A stretch of 64,000 nt of DNA, from positions 372,001 to 436,000 of the forward strand of contig NZ_FPAJ01000004.1 of the NCBI RefSeq assembly GCF_900116285.1. Direction: 5' to 3'. Position 1 is the stretch's first letter. Each line of letters begins with the position of its first letter. The translations under genes were made by a program, and so were the position numbers. The notes beneath the pieces were generated by a model. The model made no database searches, had not been told where the DNA came from, and was given only the letters and a program-made list of their open reading frames with translations. Shown one piece after another: positions 17,478 to 32,958 of this stretch. The DNA comes from Sulfitobacter marinus (lineage in GTDB: Bacteria; Pseudomonadota; Alphaproteobacteria; Rhodobacterales; Rhodobacteraceae).

Positions 17478-17950
17478 TTATTGGCACCTTGCTCATCATC
17501 TGCGGCTTGCCGTGATTTGTGATGGCCTTTGTTAAGTTGAAAAGACCAAAGCCGGCCTTACGTGCGTCAGGGAATCCCCTCGACCTCTTATGGGCCAGCT
17601 TGAAGTGTTGACTGCCGGTAGAATAACCTGGCCAAAGGATCGACCTTTAACAGTAAAAACTGGGTAACGGTTCATCATACCTCCAACAAATACTAGCGAA
17701 CAGCTGAAGAGCCTTGACTTATCAGGCTGCCAAATTGACTGACTTTCACTTTTGCAAAGACAATGGCAGAAAAGTTCCATCAACCAACCTAGTCTTTGTC
17801 CAAAGCCCTGCAGAAAAGCGAAGGTCCGCAATACGAAAGCTGCACTGCAAAAACCTGACAATGAATGAACGGCAGGTAATGGGATGTACCGGCTGCTTCA
17901 CCCAGCAGGTTAGACTGAGCTTAGTTTCACCTGCATATAGGAGAAGTAGC
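17478..17950. other. 473-bp gap before the IS110 transposase; no gene supported
   Basis: A plus-strand frame from 17714 runs into the transposase, but its first 79 codons look unlike protein and the transposase has its own ribosome-binding site at ~17940. The left end of the insertion sequence must lie in this gap, but I cannot fix it. A short motif, CGAAGGTCCGCAAT (17819-17832), recurs near 23120. Confidence 0.4.
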
Positions 17951-19009
17951 ATGGCGAAGGTTGAGTTTGATGATCTGAAGTCGGTCGGCATCGATATTGG
18001 TAAAGACACATTTCACATTGTTGGGTTTAATCACGAAGGGCAGCGCGTTCTGCGTAAGCAGATCAAACGTCTTGCATTGGTCACGACGTTCGAAAAGTTG
18101 CAGCGTTGTATTGTTGGCATGGAGGCGTGTCTGAGTGCCCACTTTGTCAGTCGCACGCTGCGCAAGATGGGCTTTGAGCCTCGGATTATTCCAGCGATCT
18201 ACGTAAAGCCATTTAATAAGGGCCAGAAGAACGACTACAATGATGCGGAAGCCATTGCTGAGGCGGCGCTACGTCCGAACTTGAATACAGTCTCTGAGAA
18301 GAGCCAAGATCAGCTCGATTTACAAGCGTTGCACCGTGTCAGGTCGCGCTTGGTGTCGCGACGGACGGCAACGATCAATCAGATCCGTGCGTTTTTGATT
18401 GAACAGGGCATCACTGTCCGCAAAGGTTTGCGTGCGTTGAAAAATTCCTTTGAGGCCATCCTTGAAGACCGCAAAGATGAGATATCGCCGCGGATGCGCA
18501 AGATACTCATCGGGCTCTATGGCGATTGGATGTGGATGGATGATCGGATCAATGCAGTCTCAAAAGAGATCGAGGACATCAGTCGAACGGAAGAGAACTG
18601 CGTCAACGTGATGACGGTGCCTGGGATTGGCCCGATGATCTCGACGGCGATGGTGGCCGCTATCGGTGAAGGTGAGGCCTTCGATCGAGGTCGTGACTTT
18701 GCGGCCTGGGTGGGATTGGTCCCCCGACAATACAGCACGGGCGGCCGAACTATATTGGGACGGATCACGAAACGTGGAAGCAGGTATTTGCGCATGCTGT
18801 TCGTTCAGGCGGCCAAGGTCATCCTGATGCGGCCGCACCGATGGCCGGACTTCAGCTTCGGTGCATGGCTCACCCGCGCATCAGAGCGCATGCATCGCAA
18901 TAAGCTGGCAATCGCTTTGGCGAATAAATTGGCCCGGATGGCGTGGAGCATATTGAGACATAAAACGGCGTTTGATGCGCCCAGAGATGAGATCATGGCT
19001 GGCGTCTAA
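17951..19009 (+). mobile_element. IS110-family (IS110/IS1111 type) insertion sequence transposase
   Basis: 352 residues from the ATG at 17951, preceded by TAGGAGAAGTAGC. The N-terminal DEDD domain has VGIDIGKDTFHIVGF (first Asp), VGMEACLSAHFVSR (Glu region) and KNDYNDAEAIAEAALRP (Asp pair). The C-terminal transposase_20 domain has TVPGIGPMISTAMVAAIGE and a likely catalytic Ser in RQYSTGGRTILGRITKRG. The open reading frame is full length and intact, so the element may be active. This family recombines through a circular intermediate and usually leaves no target duplication, so the ends cannot be set from direct repeats. It marks the left side of the accessory island. Confidence 0.92.
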
Positions 19010-19339: not shown

Positions 19340-20191
19340 TTACTCTTCTAACTTTGAGACGAGCGCCGACCACTTCGGTAGATTTGAATTTCGGGGTTTA
19401 TCGTAAAGACTTGGATTGCAGATCACCGACCAGAGTTCCGCTAGGTCGTGATCGTGACTTAAATTGTCCAAGAACGTCGGGTTAAACAACGATACGAGTT
19501 TAACCTCGAGTTCCCTGACTTCGAAATACCCATTTGATAGGTCCGCATTTACTGAGGGTGCGCTGACCTCTGAGTTCCAATATTTGGCGAGCTTTAAGAC
19601 GGCTTTTTTAATCGCCGGAACACCAGACACATCAATGTCATACAATCGGTTTCGGTAAGCATGTTTGAGGGAACGCAATTCGAGAAGAGCCTCTTTATCA
19701 GAGGCGGAAACATCCGCGCACTTCGAGGTCCAGTTGATTAGCCGGTCATAGTCGAACTCGGGTTCACCATAAGTCGCGCGATGGAAGACACATGCATTTC
19801 GCACCGCGACAAACATGATGTCTGCTTGTAGGAGGCGGTTCCAATACTGTACGTCAAGTTCACTTAAGCGGAAAATCGGTTGGATTGCTGACTTAAGTTG
19901 TCCGATATAGTTCTTTTTAGGTTTGCTACGCGCGAGCAGAGAACCGACATACCCGCCATCATCCCTGATCGCAACTCCATCCTGTTTTACATGCTGTACG
20001 AACAATGACTGGGCCGCCGTCATCGCTTCAAATTCGGCTCGAGTATAGCGTGATACATTCCAGCCTTCGTCAACAAACCGGTCAACTGTAGCACTATTTC
20101 GACTAGGTCCGTCGACAACTAGCAGGTCCTTGTCACTAAGATAGTCGTCTTCATTTCTAGCAACAGATCCAATAATGTATATCGATACCAT
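19340..20191 (-). CDS. Nucleotidyltransferase-fold protein (pol-beta/MNT type), second gene of a channel-NTase pair
   Basis: 283 residues. The very N-terminus carries the nucleotidyltransferase motif: Gly8-Ser9 in YIIGSVARNEDD and the metal-binding pair Asp20 and Asp22 in LSDKDLLVVDG. The third carboxylate is not obvious. A region SLFVQHVKQDGVAI near residues 60-75 is like that seen in stand-alone NTases. The remaining ~190 residues are helical and may be a HEPN-like or substrate-recognition domain. It lies 8 bp after the pentapeptide/channel gene and is surely co-transcribed with it. It could be an antitoxin that modifies the channel or RNA, or a signal-making enzyme that gates it; both are inferences. 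Codon use is AT-rich, as expected for acquired DNA. Confidence 0.7.
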   Translation of the reverse strand: MVSIYIIGSVARNEDDYLSDKDLLVVDGPSRNSATVDRFVDEGWNVSRYTRAEFEAMTAAQSLFVQHVKQDGVAIRDDGGYVGSLLARSKPKKNYIGQLKSAIQPIFRLSELDVQYWNRLLQADIMFVAVRNACVFHRATYGEPEFDYDRLINWTSKCADVSASDKEALLELRSLKHAYRNRLYDIDVSGVPAIKKAVLKLAKYWNSEVSAPSVNADLSNGYFEVRELEVKLVSLFNPTFLDNLSHDHDLAELWSVICNPSLYDKPRNSNLPKWSALVSKLEE

Positions 20192-20199
20192 CCTTAACC

Positions 20200-21108
20200 T
20201 CAGCTTGTTATTTTTCGAAAGAGCATTGAGACTAGTGTCGCGAGAGTGACGAAACCAACAATTGCTTCAAATGCAATGACTACATGGCCGGACACCGTTG
20301 TCGGAGTAATGTCTCCAAAACCGAGAGAAGTAACGACGATTGTTGAAAAGTAAAATGCCTCTGACCAGTCCACAACTGGCTCTTTATCAATCATCAGTCC
20401 AAAACACTGGGCAAACGTGTGGTTTATCACAGTAAGAAAGATTAGGAGCGACGCCGCAGTCACCGAAAAGTTAAAAAGGCGTGTACCAGAACCGGTCGTA
20501 ATTTCCAGTATCTTCGCCTTCATGATTGCCGCAAGCAGTAAGCCCCGTTTCAAAAAACCAGCGTCAGAATCCTTTAGCTGTTCCCACTTTAGGTATCTTT
20601 GCCATCGTTTAAACTGATACTGTGCCTCAAGTGCAAAGTCTGGCTGACCTTCTTGACGACTATTATTCAGAAGCTCTTGGTACAAACTCATACCGACATT
20701 GGGGTGCTTGACGCTATCGTTACACCTCTCAAAAACCTTGGGGTCTACGTAACAATTTTTGAACTCGGCTCGGAAAAAGTTGCACCAATCAAATTCGCAA
20801 TTGTTGAAACGGCAATCCGTAATTATTGAACCAATGAATAAACAGTCTTCGAAATTGCAATCCGTAAACTCAATGTACTGAATTTGAGTTTTGGAAAATG
20901 AGACATTAATGAAAGTCTTGTTTCGTACCATCCACTTTGCAGGTGGTTTCGGGCTGACAAGCTTTTCAGGCCGATACAATAAATCTTTGAGCGTAGCTTT
21001 GTCGCGCGTCGCGGCTAGTGCCCAAAAGGCATCTGGGCTAGCTATTTCTAAGTATGGTTCATTAAGCTCAAAAAATTCGTCCGGATCACGTTTCATTTTT
21101 TCTTTCAT
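20200..21108 (-). CDS. Pentapeptide-repeat protein fused to a two-helix K+-channel-like domain
   Basis: 302 residues. Residues ~65-130 form pentapeptide repeats (FINVSFSKTQIQYIEFTDCN, then RFNNCEFDWCNFFRAEF). A helical linker follows to ~205. The C-terminus is a two-transmembrane channel module: helix one FSVTAASLLIFLTVI (~208-230), a pore loop and filter TSLGFGDITPTT (~262-273), then helix two VVIAFEAIVGFVTLATLVSM. The filter is close to the TVGYGD signature of potassium channels. Pentapeptide-channel fusions occur in bacterial genomes with uncertain roles. Here the partner NTase and the divergent reverse transcriptase suggest a membrane-depolarising effector, which is inferred. The start ATG at 21108 is the only good one. 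Confidence 0.75.
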   Translation of the reverse strand: MKEKMKRDPDEFFELNEPYLEIASPDAFWALAATRDKATLKDLLYRPEKLVSPKPPAKWMVRNKTFINVSFSKTQIQYIEFTDCNFEDCLFIGSIITDCRFNNCEFDWCNFFRAEFKNCYVDPKVFERCNDSVKHPNVGMSLYQELLNNSRQEGQPDFALEAQYQFKRWQRYLKWEQLKDSDAGFLKRGLLLAAIMKAKILEITTGSGTRLFNFSVTAASLLIFLTVINHTFAQCFGLMIDKEPVVDWSEAFYFSTIVVTSLGFGDITPTTVSGHVVIAFEAIVGFVTLATLVSMLFRKITS

Positions 21109-21608
21109 GCAGTGGTCAATCGTTTGGGCAATACCGGCGACCTGAGTATTCTGACTCTATATGAAACCAGTCTACAAGCATTGACAACCATTATAGTCAG
21201 TTTGCATTACTCATCCAATCAACACGGTGTTTACCTAGACACGCTACCGTGCAGCATTGAAACACCAATAGTCATAGTCTGTCGATTGGCTGCAGATCCG
21301 TCAAACGACGGCTAGAGGAAAAGAAAGTGCGCGAGGCTGTGAAGGCCTTGTGGCGGAAGGTTGAGGATGATTAGGTTCACTTGCATTTTTTCGAAAAAAA
21401 TCAACCTGTAGCTTGCTTTCGCGCTGGCACGCCCTTAATTATACTACATCTAGTTTCGTTGTCGCGCCCGAAGTGACGTTGGAGTTCTCTCTGCGCATCA
21501 CGGCAAGATACGGACCAGCCAAGGTGGACAATTCTGCCGAGGTTGCTGTTGTCACGGCATGCTCGTGCTCAGTAGATGGACAGAAGTCAACGGTCGGGAG
21601 GATATGAG
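21109..21608. other. 500-bp divergent gap between the channel gene and the reverse transcriptase
   Basis: Holds a probable gene relic at 21291-21374, a 5-bp hairpin CCGTC-AAAC-GACGG (21298-21311) and a TTTTTTCGAAAAAA palindrome near 21385-21400. No retron msr/msd fold or group II intron domain could be recognised by eye, although a structured RNA here cannot be excluded. Confidence 0.4.
21291..21374 (+). pseudogene. C-terminal relic of an unknown gene
   Basis: The frame ending at TAG 21372 reads RRLEEKKVREAVKALWRKVE before the stop, a charged amphipathic helix with normal codon use. It has no start: the frame closes at 21258. This suggests a 3' gene end left behind when the flanking RT/channel module was inserted or rearranged. 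I do not recognise the parent gene. Confidence 0.35.
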
Positions 21609-22958
21609 TTGGGGACCCGAGCGAAGACATCAAAAACCCTCTTTGATGAAGTTAAAAGTGAGGCAAATCTTTTCGCCGCATGGAGGCATGTAAAGAAGAG
21701 CGCATTGTCGTCAAGTAATGGCGAAATCCGGGGTAACGCATCTAAGTTTGAGCATGCCCATCAAACACATCTGCGCAAAATTGGGCGACAATTGCGAGAA
21801 CATAGGTTTCAATTTGATCCGGCCAAGGGAGTCCTTAAAGATAAAAGGGCACGCCTAGCACTCAACAAAGACCCACGACCAATTGCCATTGCAAGCGTTA
21901 AGAACAGAGTTGTTCAACGTGCAATTCTACAAGTGTTGCAGCCCCGCCGCATAACTGACCTTTCCAATCTAAATTCTAAGTCGATCCAAACGACTGATCC
22001 TAGACTAGGAGCAATCAACAACGTTAACCAGTCGAAGTATGGTGTCGGAGGTTTATTAGGGGAATTTGGAGGAGTAAAGCCTGCGGTCAATCTGTTGCTG
22101 GATGAAATGAACGACGGGAAAAAATACTATTATAAGTCGGATATTAAATCTTTTTTTACAGACATCCCAACTGCCAGCGTAGTCGACATTGTAAGAAAGG
22201 AAACTAATGACAACCTTCTTGCCGACTTACTTGAGGAAGCTCTGAGAGTGGATTTATCCAACCCAGAAGAACTGGGTAGATTTACTGAGCTTTTCCCAAA
22301 ACTAGGGATTGGAGTGGCTCAAGGCTCTTCTCTATCGGCGTTTGCTGGCAATTTGCTACTTTACGACTTTGATCATCAATTGAATTCTCCAGATACAACC
22401 GCCGTGCGCTACATTGATGATTTACTTGTGATCTGTAAGTCTGAGGCGGCGCGAGATTGGGCGATCAAGACTGCGACGAAGGGAATGAAAGACTTTGGCT
22501 TCTCATTGTATCCAGTCGGTTCTCCCAAATCAGCGGCAGGGAAAATTGAAGATTCTTTCGATTTTCTTGGCTGCACATTTCAAAGAAACCGTTGCGTGCC
22601 AAGCAGTGATTCAGTCAGTAAATTACTCGCAGGAATTGAAGAGCATATTATTTCGTCGAAGCAAGAAATTACTGAGAGCATTCAACAGAACAAATTAGTT
22701 CCTCCAAAACTTTCATCCACTCAAATAACTAGGACTATTGCTGACAAAATGTATGGTTGGCAAAAGTCTTTTGACTTCGTCACTGACTCAAACGCGTTTG
22801 GGAAAATCGATTTGAAAGCGGCTAAGAAACTTCTGGATTTCGATAGGTGGTTACGCCGAAAGCTATTGAACGCTTCTGACGAAACCCGCCTAAGCGTAAT
22901 GGGAATTCCCAAACTTGCAGCTATGCACTCTAGCTCTTCTACGGAAACAAAACCCTAA
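21609..22958 (+). CDS. Reverse transcriptase with YIDD active site (group II-intron-like / DRT-like), no intron RNA seen
   Basis: 449 residues from a TTG at 21609, placed seven bases after GGGAGG. An ATG at 21576 in the same frame has no ribosome-binding site. RT motifs in order: RPIAIASVKNRVVQRAIL (RT1), KSDIKSFFTDIP (RT3, first catalytic Asp), GVAQGSSLSAFAGNLLLYDFD (RT4), AVRYIDDLLVI (RT5, about residues 265-275) and FDFLGCTF (RT7). The retron-specific VTG region is absent, and I find no group II intron domain V or HNH endonuclease. YIDD in place of YADD is reported for group II-like G2L4 enzymes with DNA-repair roles. The ~100-residue C-terminus is helical. Divergent from the NTase/channel pair; a defence or repair role is inferred. 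Confidence 0.85.
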   Translation: MGTRAKTSKTLFDEVKSEANLFAAWRHVKKSALSSSNGEIRGNASKFEHAHQTHLRKIGRQLREHRFQFDPAKGVLKDKRARLALNKDPRPIAIASVKNRVVQRAILQVLQPRRITDLSNLNSKSIQTTDPRLGAINNVNQSKYGVGGLLGEFGGVKPAVNLLLDEMNDGKKYYYKSDIKSFFTDIPTASVVDIVRKETNDNLLADLLEEALRVDLSNPEELGRFTELFPKLGIGVAQGSSLSAFAGNLLLYDFDHQLNSPDTTAVRYIDDLLVICKSEAARDWAIKTATKGMKDFGFSLYPVGSPKSAAGKIEDSFDFLGCTFQRNRCVPSSDSVSKLLAGIEEHIISSKQEITESIQQNKLVPPKLSSTQITRTIADKMYGWQKSFDFVTDSNAFGKIDLKAAKKLLDFDRWLRRKLLNASDETRLSVMGIPKLAAMHSSSSTETKP

Positions 22959-24245: not shown

Positions 24246-24620
24246 GTGGCGAATATGATGACTTCGGATGAAAAACAGGCAATTTTGTGCGCCATTCCCA
24301 AACTCTTTACCCGCTGGGAGCTCACCGAGCAGCAGTCGTTTGAGCTCCTCGGCGTCTCTCGCGAAAAGTGGAATAGAATCCAAGCGGGACACTGTGAGGA
24401 GCCGCTAACTGAAGACCAAAGTATGCGAGCAGGTACGCTAATAGGGATCCACGTCGCACTCGGCACGATCTTCACCAAGCCACGGTGCTATAATTGGCTC
24501 CGGCTACCGAACCGCGCTGCGTTTTTTGCGGGTCAACCGGCAATAACGGTGATGATTGCAGGCGGACTACCTACGATCATCCGTGTCCGTCAATATCTCG
24601 AAGCTGAACTAGCAATGTGA
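24246..24620 (+). CDS. MbcA/ParS/Xre-type antitoxin-like protein without its toxin
   Basis: 124 residues. The N-terminal ~60 residues are an Xre-like HTH (LFTRWELTEQQSFELLGVSR). The C-terminal ~50 residues match the MbcA/ParS toxin-binding domain (NWLRLPNRAAFFAGQPAITV, then MIAGGLPTIIRVRQYLEAEL). Such proteins normally neutralise an adjacent RES-domain toxin, but none follows: the next 500 bp hold IS relics and a tRNA-like gene. The start is GTG at 24246 after AAGGTGA; the ATGs at 24255 and 24258 are alternatives. The inverted repeat just upstream is a likely autoregulatory site. It may be an orphan antitoxin. Confidence 0.72.
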   Translation: MANMMTSDEKQAILCAIPKLFTRWELTEQQSFELLGVSREKWNRIQAGHCEEPLTEDQSMRAGTLIGIHVALGTIFTKPRCYNWLRLPNRAAFFAGQPAITVMIAGGLPTIIRVRQYLEAELAM

Positions 24621-27333: not shown

Positions 27334-27840
27334 TTGGAGAGATCGCAGAACGCGGTTATTTCCAACCTGCCTTCTGCACAAGAAACAACTGCAGAAGGTA
27401 TAAATGTTCTTCAAATACATATTAGGCATATCGCCGAAATTAACTACGGTCGATGGCACTGGAAGCCAATGCTGACGGTCGAACAGGTTTCAAAGCACTT
27501 TAATTTGAGTTGCGCGACAATTCGCAGGAAAGCCGCTGAGAAAGATATCAACGCCATTCGGATTGGAAGGGAATACCGATTTGAATGGGTCGACCTATGG
27601 TCTTGCGAAAGCGCCAAAATGCCGCGCGCCTCCAATAGCACACGCTACAAAGAAAATCTTCTTACCAAGTCTGAAATCGCCACTAACTTTCAGGTCAGTG
27701 TTCGAACTGTAGAGCGCTGGATCGTAAACGGCATGCCTACGCGTAACGTTTTCAGTAACGTGCGCTGCAACCCGCACGACGTTACTGAATGGCACCTCGG
27801 GCGCGGTGTGGCTGTTAGAGACAGTTGGTGGCAGCAATGA
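27334..27840 (+). CDS. Double helix-turn-helix (MerR/excisionase-like) protein of the recombination cassette
   Basis: 168 residues if started at the TTG at 27334; the true start may be internal, such as the ATG at 27469 before LTVEQVSKHFNLS. Two winged-HTH/excisionase-like segments are visible: LTVEQVSKHFNLSCATIRRK with AIRIGREYRFEWVDL, and LLTKSEIATNFQVSVRTVER with a following NPHDVTEWH. These are typical of recombination directionality factors or element regulators. It lies upstream of three tyrosine recombinases on the same strand and probably regulates or directs them. Confidence 0.65.
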   Translation: MERSQNAVISNLPSAQETTAEGINVLQIHIRHIAEINYGRWHWKPMLTVEQVSKHFNLSCATIRRKAAEKDINAIRIGREYRFEWVDLWSCESAKMPRASNSTRYKENLLTKSEIATNFQVSVRTVERWIVNGMPTRNVFSNVRCNPHDVTEWHLGRGVAVRDSWWQQ

Positions 27841-28025
27841 TCGCCAAGCTTCGCACAACCAAAAAAGCCAAACCTCGACACGGGCCACCATCTTCCGACA
27901 GTCGCACAAACGGGACCAAATATCTATTGGCGTTATGTTTTGGACCGCTTGTGCGAAATTCGGAAGAATCCCGTCAGAATGTGCGAAACGCCGACAGCTT
28001 TCCGCCTCTCTCCAAACTTTTTTAA
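27837..28025 (+). CDS. Small ORF overlapping the HTH gene end (62 aa), unknown
   Basis: Starts at ATG 27837 within the stop of the previous gene (ATGA), an overlap common in operons. The protein begins MIAKLRTTKKAKPRHGPPSS, is basic at its N-terminus and matches no family I know. An alternative frame continuous with the next recombinase is also open here. Weak evidence for a real product. Confidence 0.3.
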   Translation: MIAKLRTTKKAKPRHGPPSSDSRTNGTKYLLALCFGPLVRNSEESRQNVRNADSFPPLSKLF

Positions 28026-28099
28026 TGCCACTCAATAGTGCTTCTCAGCCGTCGCCGCACAGCGCGGCGACGCCTAAGCAGCACCAAAAAGGAGAACAA

Positions 28100-30022
28100 A
28101 TGCTTAACAAGACCTCTGAACTTAATACCAACAGCGCGACCATCGCAGATGTAGTCGTTTGGGCCACTGATGCTAACTTGCATCGCGACACCATCTACGA
28201 ACTGCGAAAGATCGCAGCTCGTCTTGGGATTACCGAAGAAGACCTTTCAGCGATACCAGCGGATTTATTTTACTTTGAAACGAGCATCGCGCCTACACCC
28301 TATGGAAGTGTGTCGAATGCGTCGAACATTGAAGCTGCGCGGAAACGCGGTAATTCTCGACTGCGGAGCTGCCTCAAAAAGTTCGGCGGATCGAAGCCGA
28401 ATCTTTGCAGCGACGTCTCAGAATCATTCCTGAAACTAATTGAAGCGGTCAAAGATCGCGAGGGTTTTTCAGCATGTGGTGCCGATCTGCCAACGTGCCA
28501 ACATCTGCCCATCTATACATTGCGTCGCCTGTCCCGAGTGCCACTTGCTAACCTTGATCAGGCCGAGGTCAACCAGATGGTCGAGGGGAGCACTCCTGAA
28601 ACCCGCAGATCATTGGTGAAGGGGATCAAGGCTCTGAACATGCTCCGTGATGGGCAAAGCAAGTGGCCGGAGATCGGGTGTCTTCTACCGCCTACCGAGT
28701 TGCAAGTCCCTTCTGGTCGCGAACGCGCATATCGCTTGAAGTGGAGCGAATTCACGCCCGAATTCCGCGAGAAAGTGGATGCGTTATTTGCAGAAACCCT
28801 GGTGACCCCAGAAAGTCTTGCACAAAGGGCGAAGCAGATGATGACCGACGGAGTATCATCTGAGGCAATCAACAAGTTCGTCACCGACCGCACTATGGGT
28901 CGCAAGCATATTTCGAAGAACCACGAAGCGGCGAAAGCAACCTATCGCGCAGCGATCACTTGGGTTGCCCGAGCCTATGCAACTCTCCACCCACTCACAG
29001 AACTTGTAGATCCACAGCAGCTATTTGATCGAGATATCATCCGGCGCGCGATTGACGACCAAATTACCCGGTCAAACACGTCGTTAAAACTTAAAGATGC
29101 TAACAAGAGCTGCACGTTGGCCAATCGCCTAGTCAGCCTTAAAACACTAGCTCTGTATGGCCTCCGCTCCGAAGCGGTGGTGCTTGACATCGAAGTCCTT
29201 TCTGCAGCCTACAAAGATTATATTATAAAACAACGCGAAATGACCGACAATGCCGATGCCATTTGCACAGCACTTCAGCACAATCCACATTTGGCTGCGC
29301 GATTTGTTAACGCACCTACCGCACTTACTCACCTAGCCGGCGAAGTCTTAAGAGCGGCGCAAGAGACAAATAATAAGCTCCACGAACTTTACGCTCTGCG
29401 TCTTTATGCTGTCGCCGCGCTCTATGCGATCCAACTATCCCGCCCGTTGCGTACGCGCAATCTGATTACCTTGCGCCATCGTTTATCCCCGCACCTGGGC
29501 AAGAACCTCCGCTGGCTCAAGGACGGCGAACATGCCGAAATTCGTTTCAACTCTCTCGAAACGAAAAATGAACGGACGATTAGGGTCGCTGTAGTCGGAA
29601 AAGATGCCCAGATCCTGTGGAATTGGCAGAATATCTACCGCCCGCGACTTATCGAGCTGTCAGGCTGTAATGACAGCCCCTATCTGTTTCCCGGCGCGGC
29701 CACGCCGCGGCTTGTTAAGAACGGCCTCACTCTACCCGACGGAACTATGTCGCCGTCTTCTTTCGCCGAATTGTGGGCGAAGGGCGATCAGGTTATTGGG
29801 CTTGGACTTACACCTCATTCCTGCCGACATGCGATAGCCACTCTGGTGCTCGCCAAAGAGCCCGGAAACTTCGCCAAAGCTGCTGCGGTCCTTGCAGACT
29901 CCGAAGCAACTGTACGCAAACATTATGGCAAGGATAGCGGCGAGAGCGCTTCAAGTGCGGTCCGTAGTGTGCTGCTGGCGCAATACCCCAGTTTGTTCAA
30001 AAATACCGGAGGCCAGTATTGA
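28100..30022 (+). CDS. Large tyrosine recombinase (first of three)
   Basis: 640 residues from ATG 28100, after a good AAAAGGAGAACAA ribosome-binding site; the open frame extends further upstream but without such a signal. The C-terminal catalytic domain has the first Arg in SRPLRTRNLITL (about 451-453), HSCRHAIATL (His573, Arg576) and the nucleophile in VRKHYGKDSG (Tyr609). The long N-terminal ~400 residues are helical. It is about twice the size of standard integrases, like those of site-specific transposons and large-element recombinases. The stop overlaps the next start (TGATG). Confidence 0.88.
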   Translation: MLNKTSELNTNSATIADVVVWATDANLHRDTIYELRKIAARLGITEEDLSAIPADLFYFETSIAPTPYGSVSNASNIEAARKRGNSRLRSCLKKFGGSKPNLCSDVSESFLKLIEAVKDREGFSACGADLPTCQHLPIYTLRRLSRVPLANLDQAEVNQMVEGSTPETRRSLVKGIKALNMLRDGQSKWPEIGCLLPPTELQVPSGRERAYRLKWSEFTPEFREKVDALFAETLVTPESLAQRAKQMMTDGVSSEAINKFVTDRTMGRKHISKNHEAAKATYRAAITWVARAYATLHPLTELVDPQQLFDRDIIRRAIDDQITRSNTSLKLKDANKSCTLANRLVSLKTLALYGLRSEAVVLDIEVLSAAYKDYIIKQREMTDNADAICTALQHNPHLAARFVNAPTALTHLAGEVLRAAQETNNKLHELYALRLYAVAALYAIQLSRPLRTRNLITLRHRLSPHLGKNLRWLKDGEHAEIRFNSLETKNERTIRVAVVGKDAQILWNWQNIYRPRLIELSGCNDSPYLFPGAATPRLVKNGLTLPDGTMSPSSFAELWAKGDQVIGLGLTPHSCRHAIATLVLAKEPGNFAKAAAVLADSEATVRKHYGKDSGESASSAVRSVLLAQYPSLFKNTGGQY

Positions 30023-31362
30023 TGAAGAAATCTATCCTAGAAGCTCGCCTCTCATCGACGCCAGCTCCAATCCGCAAATCGCTTTTGGAAGCCCATGACA
30101 GCTTACCAGCTGGGGCCGCTACGGTTATCAACCGTTTCTTCGTTATTGCAGCATCTAGAGGGGAACCACTGGACGCACCATCTGCGAGCAGCTTCCACTA
30201 CGCATGCGCGTCAGAATCGACATTCAGGCTCCTGCTGCGCACTCTCGCAGCACATGCGCCACAGGTTTCGACAGCGGCGGCGCTTAGCGTGAAGGCCGAC
30301 TGGGTATCCAAACGCCCTAAGGGCAGTGCAGCGCGCAATAAGACTGCCAACAGACGGCCTCACGTAGAGTTCGACATCACGCACTGGCCAGCCTCCTGGC
30401 AAGTTTTTTTAGTCGGTTTACGTAGTGCGGATATTACACCCAAAACGTTAAAGCGCTATGTCGCTTCGATTAGCCGATGCGCAGATGTCGTTTCTGAAAA
30501 TGGGCTGTCAGATGATCTGTCGTTCCTTACCGGCTACGAAATCGCGAAAGTCCTGACTGCGCAGAAAAAGCGTCTTTCACCGATAACTATTGCAAATTAC
30601 CTGAATGCTCTTGGTATGCTAGGACGGCATGGAGGCGCTGATCCCGATGGTCTGACTGGCCTCGCGTTCGTCAGTCAGAACCAGCTCTGCCTTTCCAAAG
30701 GTCAAGAAAAGAAGAAGTTTTCCCGCATAGACGGTCTCATGGCGCGCGGCGCTTACACTCACATCGGTCGTGTGATCGCCCAACTGCGCGAAGTAGCAGC
30801 CCACGCGCCCGGTCATTCATTTGAGCGCACAAAAGCACTCCAATCCGCTGCCATTTGCGCCGTGGCATTGAATATGCCTGCACGTACAGGTGACATGTCA
30901 CGGTGGGTCATCGGCAAAGAACTCACCAGATCAATTACTGGCGAATGGTCCCTGAATTGGTTTCAAGAAAAAACCAAGAAATCGACGGGAGCCGGAAAGC
31001 TTTGGCAAGAGGTCGCGGAATCCCTTGATGAGCACATTCTGGGTGGTCGACCGCAGCGCCTCACATCCCTGCGATACAATGAGTGTATTGGAACGAACTG
31101 GCTATCGCTAACCAACAAAGCATACCAATCCAAATGGCCTTCGCTGAGGTTCAAAGAGGCGGTTGGCATTCCACTACACGACCTTCGCACGCTACTTGCT
31201 GACCACATGCGCCGGCATACCCCCGAGACCGCAGCAAACGTCATTCAAACAATGCTTGGCCACTCTTCAACAGGATCTGGAGAAGCTTACCGTAGCGATT
31301 GCGAGCAGGACTATGCATCTCATGCTTGGGCCAAAATCCGAAAGGAAGTTGGAAAATGCTGA
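30022..31362 (+). CDS. Second tyrosine-recombinase-like protein
   Basis: 446 residues from ATG 30022, overlapping the previous stop. Recombinase elements are the Arg in MPARTGDMSRWV (about Arg288), HDLRTLLADHM (His386, Arg389), LGHSSTGSGEAY and a candidate nucleophile Tyr423. An N-terminal helical arm-binding-like domain precedes them. Spacing and motifs are more divergent than in the first and third recombinases, so it may be a non-catalytic partner. The translational overlap suggests that proteins one and two act as a complex. Confidence 0.78.
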   Translation: MKKSILEARLSSTPAPIRKSLLEAHDSLPAGAATVINRFFVIAASRGEPLDAPSASSFHYACASESTFRLLLRTLAAHAPQVSTAAALSVKADWVSKRPKGSAARNKTANRRPHVEFDITHWPASWQVFLVGLRSADITPKTLKRYVASISRCADVVSENGLSDDLSFLTGYEIAKVLTAQKKRLSPITIANYLNALGMLGRHGGADPDGLTGLAFVSQNQLCLSKGQEKKKFSRIDGLMARGAYTHIGRVIAQLREVAAHAPGHSFERTKALQSAAICAVALNMPARTGDMSRWVIGKELTRSITGEWSLNWFQEKTKKSTGAGKLWQEVAESLDEHILGGRPQRLTSLRYNECIGTNWLSLTNKAYQSKWPSLRFKEAVGIPLHDLRTLLADHMRRHTPETAANVIQTMLGHSSTGSGEAYRSDCEQDYASHAWAKIRKEVGKC

Positions 31363-31471
31363 TTAATACATCTGACCTGTCCCATCGCATAGGGCAGAGC
31401 ACGCACCAGTCTCATTCCGACGCGCGCAATTTTGCTGGCGCAATTCGTTCGCAAACCGACAGGTGTTCAGA

Positions 31472-31732
31472 ATGAACGCTCAGACACTGCACCAGCATAT
31501 TCACAATACACGACATGCGGTACCAACCCCGACCAAGCGCGGGCTCTCTCGCGAAGAGTCAGCCGGATACATCGGTGTCAGCACGTCAAAATTCGACCAG
31601 ATGGTCCTGGATGGTCGCATGCCGCCCGCAAGGCGCATCGACGGTCGTCGAATCTGGGACATTCGTCAGCTCGATAGCTATTTTGATCGGCTCCCCGGTT
31701 GCAACACAATTTCTGACAACCCTTGGGACTGA
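31472..31732 (+). CDS. AlpA/excisionase-like small HTH protein
   Basis: 86 residues from ATG 31472; GTG 31463 is an alternative. The segment RGLSREESAGYIGVSTSKFD then QMVLDGRMPPARRIDGRRIW is a typical AlpA/HTH_17 DNA-binding fold that ends with DIRQLDSYFDRLP. Such proteins act as excisionases or integrase regulators. It lies 9 bp before the third recombinase, an arrangement common at integrative elements. Confidence 0.78.
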   Translation: MNAQTLHQHIHNTRHAVPTPTKRGLSREESAGYIGVSTSKFDQMVLDGRMPPARRIDGRRIWDIRQLDSYFDRLPGCNTISDNPWD

Positions 31733-31741
31733 TCCGCGCTG

Positions 31742-32794
31742 ATGACACGTCGCCTTAAATATCTTGCGATCGACACGGATCGTCATGGGAACGAGCGGAT
31801 CTATTTCCGTCGTCATGGTGTGAAAACGCGCCTACGCGGCCCTTACGGCTCGGATGAATTTCTTACAGACTATCAGAAAGCTTTGGCTGTCGATGGTCGA
31901 AAGCCTGTACAAAAGAAGGTTTGTAAGGAGCCGGAGAGAACGAGTATTCGCTGGCTTTGCGTACAATATTTCAAGAGTTCTATGTTCACCAGCCTAGATC
32001 CGCGAACACAGAAAGTTCGCCGCGCGATCTTGGAAAAATTTTGCCTGAACAACAACAACGACGGCACTAAGCCGTTTGCCATGCTTCTACCCAAACATAT
32101 ACGCGCACGCCGAGACGATATGTCTGAATTTCCAGAGGCAGCAAATGGGATGATCAAAGCGGTCAGGCAGCTTTATCGCTTTGCGATCAACTATGATCAT
32201 CACGACGGCAATCCCGCTGAAAAGGTCGAATACCTCAGAGGAAACCCTGAAGGACTTCACACATGGACCATAGCTGAAGTGGCAAAATACGAAGCCACCC
32301 ATCCGGTCGGTACGATGGCACGCCTCGCGCTTGGCCTCGCCCTTTACACTGGACAGCGCCGGTCCGATCTTGTCAATTTCGGTCCCAATCACGTCCAAGA
32401 CGGCTGGCTGGTCTTTCGACAGCACAAGGGACGCAAAACAAAGCCAGTTCACCTCGAAATACCTATAATCCAAGAACTACAAAGATTGATCGACGTCACA
32501 CCCTCGGCCGGAACAACCTTCATTTCGACGGCCTTCAATAAGCCTTTCACATCTAACGGCTTTGGCAACCGTTTCCGCAAATGGTGTGATGAAGCTGGCT
32601 TGTTCCATTGCTCGGTCCACGGCCTGCGTAAAGCCGCAGCATCGCGCTTGGCCGAACTTGGCTGCACTGAACAAGAGATTATGGCGATTACAGGTCATCG
32701 CACGAGCAAAGAGGTTGTACGATATACGCGGGCGGCATCTCAAAAGCTGCGCGCCAAAAGCGCTTTGAGCCGTATGAGTAGTGAGGCAGAATAA
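31742..32794 (+). CDS. Phage-type tyrosine integrase next to tRNA-Phe
   Basis: 350 residues. An N-terminal SAM-like core-binding domain spans ~60-175. The catalytic domain follows with Arg206/207 in YTGQRRSDLVNF, HGLRKAAASRLAE (His293, Arg296), TGHRTSKEVVRY and nucleophile Tyr328. It ends 90 bp from the 3' end of tRNA-Phe, the classic position of an integrase that uses a tRNA 3' end as attachment site. It probably integrated the 17.5-32.8 kb island or part of it. Gene and motifs look intact. Confidence 0.92.
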   Translation: MTRRLKYLAIDTDRHGNERIYFRRHGVKTRLRGPYGSDEFLTDYQKALAVDGRKPVQKKVCKEPERTSIRWLCVQYFKSSMFTSLDPRTQKVRRAILEKFCLNNNNDGTKPFAMLLPKHIRARRDDMSEFPEAANGMIKAVRQLYRFAINYDHHDGNPAEKVEYLRGNPEGLHTWTIAEVAKYEATHPVGTMARLALGLALYTGQRRSDLVNFGPNHVQDGWLVFRQHKGRKTKPVHLEIPIIQELQRLIDVTPSAGTTFISTAFNKPFTSNGFGNRFRKWCDEAGLFHCSVHGLRKAAASRLAELGCTEQEIMAITGHRTSKEVVRYTRAASQKLRAKSALSRMSSEAE

Positions 32795-32883
32795 CAAAAG
32801 TGTCCCACCGAAATTCAGAGGTCGAAAAAGTGGGACAAATTCAAGCACTATGTCTTTGGAATTAAATGGTTTTCTAAATAAAA

Positions 32884-32958
32884 TGGTGCCCAGGGGCGGA
32901 ATCGAACCACCGACACGAGGATTTTCAATCCACTGCTCTACCCCTGAGCTACCCGGGC
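32884..32958 (-). tRNA. tRNA-Phe (GAA), probable island attachment site
   Basis: 75 nt with CCA encoded, minus strand. The acceptor stem GCCCGGG pairs with CCTGGGC, the D arm is AGCTCAGGGGTAGAGC, the anticodon stem-loop is TGGAT-TGAAAAT-CC with GAA in place, and the T arm carries GGTTCGATTCC. The 3' end faces the integrase gene 90 bp away. No second copy of the tRNA 3' end was found by eye on the island's far side. Confidence 0.93.

Follow-up and report, generated by a model that had tools for sequence, protein, structure and literature searches.

A conserved repeat-interval-repeat RNA upstream of G2L4-clade reverse transcriptases and a tentative model of gene assembly

The reverse transcriptase (RT) of the Sulfitobacter marinus window, i.e., the whole 64,000-nt stretch of DNA that was analysed, is a divergent G2L4 RT, monophyletic with the crystallised Pseudomonas G2L4 RT, and most RT genes of this clade are preceded by a structured RNA element in which a repeat (R1), an interval (I), a second repeat (R2), and a hairpin follow each other in this order before the RT. 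The two repeats are nearly identical within each locus, the element shows covariation, and the RNA evolves slowly. By analogy with DRT2, the RT could copy this upstream RNA, jump between the repeats, and assemble a gene, a reading that is put forward tentatively and that falls slightly short of being probable.

The window RT and its place in the G2L4 clade

The initial annotation had described an RT ORF with a YIDD box and with neither an intron domain V nor an endonuclease, and these observations hold: the gene is one ORF that matches RVT_1 (E=6.6e-15), the sole Pfam family found in it at E<=1, and Rfam at gathering thresholds detects across the window two tRNAs only and no intron or retron RNA (Table 1). 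The excerpts of PMC4244168 describe YIDD in RT5 as a feature unique to the G2L4 group, and the G2L4 link that had been drawn from this box is further backed by a structural match and a shared clade. Specifically, the best solved-structure match of the window RT is the G2L4 RT of P. aeruginosa (9d5x, E 2.4e-43; 9d4s, E 3.2e-43), with which it has in common the clade, the YIDD box (also present in most rows of the G2L4 clade, the exceptions being FIDD in G268 and YLDD in L075), the AQG motif, and, tentatively, the RT3a insertion with the equivalents of D182 and R191. In the RT0 loop (KKSALSSSN), three of the four serines are kept, those equivalent to S24, S28, and S29, the S30 equivalent being N; fewer of these serines are kept in the relatives of the window RT. 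Conversely, the window RT differs from 9d4s in a plug that is 2 aa shorter, in a G at the R190 position, and in about 35 aa that are inserted between RT2 and RT3, common to the aligned rows of sub-clade A (defined below) and absent in the P. aeruginosa RT P0001. The RT3-to-RT4 distance is 60 in the window RT and 62 in 9d4s, and among the 23 other RTs compared it has a mode of 53 (12/23) and is at least 59 in 6/23, with 16 others and seven sister-clade rows not measurable. The AlphaFold monomer model of the window RT has a mean pLDDT of 51, too low for use.

Table 1. Coordinates of the RT gene and of the RNA features that precede it in the window
Feature	Position	Strand	Remark
R domain, single copy	21448-21579	+	closing stem 21448-21451 with 21574-21577
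G2L4-clade RT ORF	21576-22958	+	460 aa, single ORF as listed
Conserved 3' RNA element: GTCAACGG and hairpin TCGGG (21594-21598)/CCCGA (21616-21620)	21586-21628	+	
Insertion of ~35 aa between RT2 and RT3	21945-22073	+	from alignment
RT3a region: G2L4-like plug insertion (DLSNPEELGRFTELFPKLGIGVAQG) and AQG of RT4	22251-22325	+	
YIDD catalytic box	22410-22421	+	within RYIDD, from translation

In an IQ-TREE tree of 60 rows, 35 of which are unclassified, the window RT belongs to a 10-row sub-clade A (support 100/100) nested inside an 18-row clade 1 that holds 9d4s (100/99), and the seven-row clade 2 (L022, L024, L094 Acetobacter, L095-L098 Acinetobacter plasmids) is the sister of clade 1, with a joint support of 98/95. 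The RTs of clade 2, which derive mostly from Acinetobacter plasmids, carry YADD. The phylogenetic placement suggested by the initial annotation was therefore obtained in part: the window RT forms one clade with the G2L4 RT 9d4s, whereas its relation to the retron, DRT, and group II intron classes is judged by model scores only, because the tree holds no labelled rows of these classes. On these scores, membership in group II introns is rejected (group_II_RT_mat 124 bits, cut-off 300; no Rfam match), as is membership in retrons (NCBIfam retron_St85 33 bits, cut-off 235; no Rfam match). Membership in DRT2 is rejected on the NCBIfam Drt2 score (38 bits, cut-off 390), on the repeat spacing of clade 1, and on the lack of a repeat unit in the window. 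The top PADLOC model for the window RT is RT_UG17 (1.1e-39), and the same two leading models, in swapped order, are retrieved by P0001; the UG17 match is limited to residues 177-427, and five window neighbours scanned contain no SLATT domain, so that membership in DRT10/UG17 is rejected as well.

The genome of the window encodes a second G2L4-clade RT (own2; C1:160295; L068 around 10293) that is 47% identical to the window RT and has a MobA/MobL protein gene 2 kb downstream. Among the other loci, G268, G317, and G827 come from the same class as this genome, and L013 from an Alphaproteobacteria MAG. No conserved partner gene was found across the 19 loci compared, in which the only links between neighbours are those of L046/L047/L048, Pa1-Pa2, G765-Pa1/Pa2, and L095-L097; the G765-Pa1/Pa2 link is recombinase-like (35-37%), and a second G765-Pa2 pair reaches 41% over 359 aa. 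Ten neighbours were scanned and include a phage/GTA tail protein, DUF2793, a terminase, MobA/MobL, a metabolic enzyme, and five proteins with no Pfam hit, with no PADLOC hit at 1e-10 among the ten; several loci adjoin phage or mobile-element genes. Since no gene is common to the loci, the RT plus its RNA may be self-contained, as far as gene content indicates. The locus of the crystallised RT was not found in viral contigs, nor did blastn find the L048 RT region in plasmids.

Several other features of the window are recorded here in their own right. A divergent Hailong-like pair (19340-21108, minus strand) lies beside the RT and comprises a HalB-like nucleotidyltransferase, scored by NF051895 at 58 bits (E 7.8e-16) against a cut-off of 190, and a pentapeptide-repeat/ion-channel protein that matches HalA in part, at 33 bits against a cut-off of 250. 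An IS110-like transposase was recognised by eye at 17714-19009 (plus strand), and a weak match to an Xre/MbcA/ParS toxin-binding domain, below cut-off (E 0.0019), lies at 24246-24620 (plus strand). Three consecutive recombinase-like ORFs (27806-32958), of the tyrosine type by eye, stand beside the tRNA-Phe at 32884, which suggests an integrated island. Elsewhere, two two-repeat loci lie near a tRNA or tRNA-like 3' end (L015, 5021-5107, Rfam; L048, 60-123, by eye), perhaps marking the edge of an island.

Direct repeats and structured RNA upstream of the RT genes

The stretch that precedes the RT in the window and in two relatives is conserved without regard to reading frame, and in one relative 133 nt of it are present twice. 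Repeats were scanned in up to 1200-1500 nt upstream of the RTs, with four controls offering only 538-871 nt and with the RT starts of the controls, L082, L097, and L098 taken as the starts of tblastn hits. A direct-repeat pair is present in 12 of the 15 assessable loci of clade 1, two Pseudomonas loci included, with repeats of 120-138 nt that are 95-100% identical within the locus, an interval of 218-262 nt, and 39-68 nt between the end of R2 and the RT start as taken in the scan (Table 2); the window, own2, and G230 have a single R only. In clade 2, a pair occurs in five of the seven loci, two of these five being near-identical (L095 and L096), and none is found in L094 or L022. Uncounted are L046, L047, and L075, with contig edges too near the RT, and the fragmented L079/L080 (G910). 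Conversely, a pair of at least 100 nt and at least 94% identity occurs in 0/38 other RT loci scanned (27 + 11), the nearest of which resemble the pairs of DGRs, with mismatches at A (102/115 in L091 and 104/123 in L088), so that the scan can detect repeat pairs of this kind. L097 and L098 share just 63% of R, yet inside each of the two loci its copies are identical.

Table 2. Direct-repeat pairs upstream of the RT genes
Locus	Clade	Repeat (nt)	Identical (nt)	Spacing (nt)
L013	1	133	126	355
L048	1	133	133	355
L049	1	133	133	361
L055	1	136	135	355
G317	1	128	124	346
G268	1	120	119	382
G763	1	131	131	352
G765	1	121	121	358
G827	1	136	134	356
Pa1	1	132	132	376
Pa2	1	138	137	376
L082	1	133	133	353
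L024	2	119	118	375
L095 and L096	2	126	122	399
L097	2	129	129	387
L098	2	123	123	378

In all five two-repeat pairs compared, conservation is higher in R and I than in the RT gene. Between Pa1 and Pa2, R1 and R2 (132/132 each), I (230/238), and the 3' element (62/63) are identical or nearly so, at an identity of 968/1236 (78%) in the RT gene and of 99/138 in the 5' flank. In steps of 50 nt, these two loci agree at 90-100% of positions ahead of the RT gene (about -600 to 0), at 88-90% in its first 200 nt, and at 66-88% from there to its end, a slow fading for which recombinational exchange may be part of the cause. Likewise, L048 and L049 are 67% identical in the RT, 87% in R, and 83% in the interval, and own2 and G763 are 95% identical in R plus hairpin (183 nt) and 72% in their RT genes.

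Covariation accompanies this conservation: 15 of 55 pairs are changed on both sides in the alignment of the interval (6 sequences), and 9 of 37 in that of R2 and the 3' element (10 sequences, window included). None of 500 shuffles reaches any of the five measures and every slid version is lower, with the proviso that the structures derive from the same alignments, which favours mostly the share of paired cells, and that kinship may also beat shuffles. R forms a closed multi-stem domain whose closing stem pairs in every alignment row with letters; in the window, one pair of this stem has changed in both letters without losing its pairing. Within the interval, a hairpin behind AAAAAC has 3 of its 6 pairs changed on both sides. 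The final hairpin (TCGGG/CCCGA) pairs in 91% of the cells of the 10-locus alignment and, as two-sided changes are absent from its pairs, its support is conservation and not covariation. Codon periodicity is weak in R and flat in the interval. Rfam at E<=0.5 on L053, L015, and L072 returns one tRNA and, near it, three weak hits, overlapping or adjacent, with nothing inside the element. The initial annotation had held that a matching ncRNA would speak against its reading of the RT: a conserved structured RNA does lie in and just past 21109-21608, and it matches no intron or retron RNA of Rfam. By term search, PMC12337344 and PMC13015716 make no mention of an ncRNA or of repeats at the locus, and none were found at G2L4 loci in the literature by title and start of abstract, a scope outside which the 2022 Cell G2L4 paper lies.

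The RNA element also bears on the start of the RT, which comes after the 3' element in the relatives: in eight members of sub-clade A, an ATG follows the hairpin arm at a distance of 6-13 nt, and in L013 the ATG in the RT frame is the second after the arm, 11 nt away. At this place, the window has no in-frame ATG, GTG, or TTG. The ATG at 21576 coincides in part with the 3' strand of the stem that closes R and is probably not the true start. The TTG at 21609, which the initial annotation had preferred on account of a GGGAGG ribosome-binding site, is not upheld either: GGGAGG (21596-21601) overlaps the 5' arm of the hairpin, and the TTG lies in its loop.

With about 60% identity to its relatives (74 differences over 184 columns against L013 and 72 over 187 against G230), the window's R may, judging from this divergence, be decaying. 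One R+I unit is missing, through either a real collapse between the repeats or a collapse in the assembly, and the window copy may therefore be inactive or keep the RNA-binding or regulatory part only. Assembly collapse of an R-I-R, an explanation that adds to the readings discussed below and excludes none of them, is somewhat less likely than not. The 12-contig genome of the window has a single R at each of its two RT loci where the single-contig relative G763 has a pair, and a search of the window's own genome with the G763 element retrieved no interval, a result that a diverged copy could escape; however, G230, a two-contig genome, likewise has a single R, and draft or metagenome loci such as L013 and L048 resolve the pair.

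Reading frames formed by joining units

Joined through R, the units give a sense-strand open run of 110-199 codons over I3'-R-I5' in 12/12 two-repeat loci of clade 1, and the most hydrophobic 19-mer of this assembled frame begins 6-15 residues ahead of R. Close to the start of the frame, Pa1, Pa2, G268, and G827 have ATGCAAAAACGTGCC (MQKRA), and G317 has TTGCAAAAACGTGCC at that place, with TTG replacing ATG. A second frame is open through R in G763, Pa1, Pa2, and G268. The genomic frame after R2 stops at -5 to 94 nt in 10 of the 12 loci, and at 136 in G827 and 201 in L048. Taken singly, the assembled ORFs of clade 1 are unremarkable: against 1000 dinucleotide shuffles, the 11 loci included (Pa2 was left out) give p values of 0.489, 0.04, 0.01, 0.008, 0.057, 0.327, 0.309, 0.444, 0.281, 0.007, and 0.102, pooled to a Fisher value of 9.4e-5 (0.019 for the reverse strand), and as the loci are related, Fisher values here and below are guides only.

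On division by three, the unit spacing leaves a remainder of 1 or 2 throughout clade 1 and of 0 throughout clade 2, where each of the five loci with a pair has an endless frame, at 125-133 codons per unit. The shuffle p values of the four clade 2 loci included are 0.008, 0.008, 0.001, and 0/1000 (Fisher 1.6e-7, with 0.001 for zero). An endless ORF as a rule for every locus thus fails in clade 1. In clade 2, the genome itself carries one open frame over R1-I-R2 in 5/5 loci with a pair, so that an ordinary repeat-containing gene is possible there. The assembled frame has the lowest pN/pS of the three frames in R in 5/5 sub-clade A pairs (0.32, 0.58, 0.47, 0.49, and 0.73), in I5' in 3/5, and in I3' in 2/5, and the pairs of clade 2 (0.55-1.98) give no consistent signal; this pattern suggests protein-level selection only for the R of sub-clade A. 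A promoter at R1 was also considered and rejected, being good by eye in four loci and reaching a shuffle p<0.1 in just 2/16 two-repeat loci (G268, 0.008; L098, 0.096), with own2 at 0.050 among the three single-R loci.

A possible gene-assembly mechanism and its alternatives

DRT2 copies a 120-nt template in an RNA beside the RT, jumps back, and makes Neo, whose units are divisible by three and stop-free (PMC12039810 and PMC11100668, excerpts). As in these descriptions, the RNA studied here lies upstream of the RT, the concatenated unit is an ORF with hydrophobic stretches, and the units of clade 2 are divisible by three without stops. Unlike DRT2 as described in the same excerpts, the repeats measure 119-138 nt instead of being ACA trinucleotides, the units measure 346-399 nt instead of 111-129, and the ORF has the sense of the RNA whereas Neo is encoded on the complement; moreover, the ORFs of clade 1 are bounded and the RT scores far below the Drt2 cut-off. 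DRT10 makes RNA-templated tandem-repeat DNA (PMC12632851, excerpts; for the UG17 context, PMC8934634, excerpts), and the likeness to it resides in the UG17 model being the best PADLOC match, the differences in the long repeats and in YIDD here as opposed to YVDD in Eco3DRT10.

The steps that we infer, namely RNA binding, template use, jumping, gene assembly, and an effector role, would run as follows. The RT would bind the upstream RNA and copy R2-I-R1; at R1, the cDNA complementary to R would re-anneal to R2 of the same or of another RNA and copying would continue, a strand transfer that would fit the published strand-annealing activity of the G2L4 RT. The product would be a concatemer of the R+I unit, and the two halves of the small ORF would be joined only in this concatemer or in a circle, the N-terminal half, with its hydrophobic stretch, lying before R2 and the C-terminal half after R1. 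The effector step would consist of the expression of the joined protein, probably leading to anti-phage growth arrest in the manner of DRT2 Neo. With somewhat more reserve, the G2L4 RTs and their sister clade might be regarded as gene-assembling RTs that use long-repeat strand transfer on R-I-R RNA and, on an equally tentative footing, might thereby make a membrane-protein gene of which the genome holds just the two halves or which, in the sister clade, turns endless.

Gene assembly is the likeliest of the readings and is preferred over a regulatory role of an RT-binding RNA, which is rather unlikely. In favour of gene assembly stand the clade, the distribution of the repeat pairs, the slow evolution and covariation of the RNA, the sense ORF with its hydrophobic stretch, the endless frame of clade 2, the pN/pS of R in sub-clade A, and the DRT2 precedent. 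Against it count the individually unremarkable ORFs and the spacing of clade 1, the second open frame in four loci, the genomic frame of clade 2, the uneven pN/pS outside R and in clade 2, the flat codon-position pattern of the interval, the published assignment to break repair, the loci with no pair, an ORF sense opposite to that of Neo, the mostly negative promoter result, and the fading of the Pa1-Pa2 identity. According to the regulatory reading, R would be a domain bound by the RT, with one copy placed in the leader of the mRNA, where it would serve autoregulation, and the other in a scaffold RNA, the RT would act in end joining as published, gene conversion would keep the copies alike, and single-R loci would be functional. 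Binding close to the start of their own gene is a trait of group II intron RTs, and the closed multi-stem fold of R, together with the retention of R plus hairpin in the single-R own2 at 95% identity to G763 against 72% in the RT genes, would suit such a domain. The published role of the G2L4 RT in double-strand-break repair (PMC12337344, excerpts) is also in its favour, but this reading would not account for the frame that stays open through the unit and has no end in the sister clade, nor for the contrast between the 63% likeness of R in L097 and L098 and its 100% duplication within each.

Considerably less probable is the reading that two ordinary small membrane-protein genes, or a single one with an internal repeat, lie beside the RT and that recombination keeps the repeats alike. 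The genomic ORF over R1-I-R2 in the five clade 2 loci with a pair agrees with such a gene, as does the 64-aa hypothetical protein annotated over nearly all of R2 in a Pseudomonas record; however, that genomic frame has a stop immediately before R1 in L098, covariation and a flat codon-position pattern in the interval speak against this reading, and R (132/132) and the interval (230/238) stay near-identical where the RT gene has 22% changes, so that synonymous sites are held too. Lastly, DGR-like retrocopying, by which the RT would copy one genomic repeat over the other and keep both identical, is very improbable: a repeat pair beside the RT with the lengths of DGR template and variable repeats, sharp edges, and near-identity within each locus would be in keeping with it, but the few differences have no A-directed mismatch pattern by eye, no separate variable target gene was seen, and the true-DGR-looking pairs L088 and L091 have 85-89% identity, mismatches at A, and another spacing.

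G2L4 RTs have been studied as domesticated repair enzymes, and a conserved repeat RNA would change what is taken as their natural template. If the gene-assembly reading is true, the assembly of genes by reverse transcription would extend beyond DRT2 to group-II-like RTs, and the published DNA-end-joining would be the in-vitro face of a strand-transfer chemistry. This reading is testable at once in the existing G2L4 systems.
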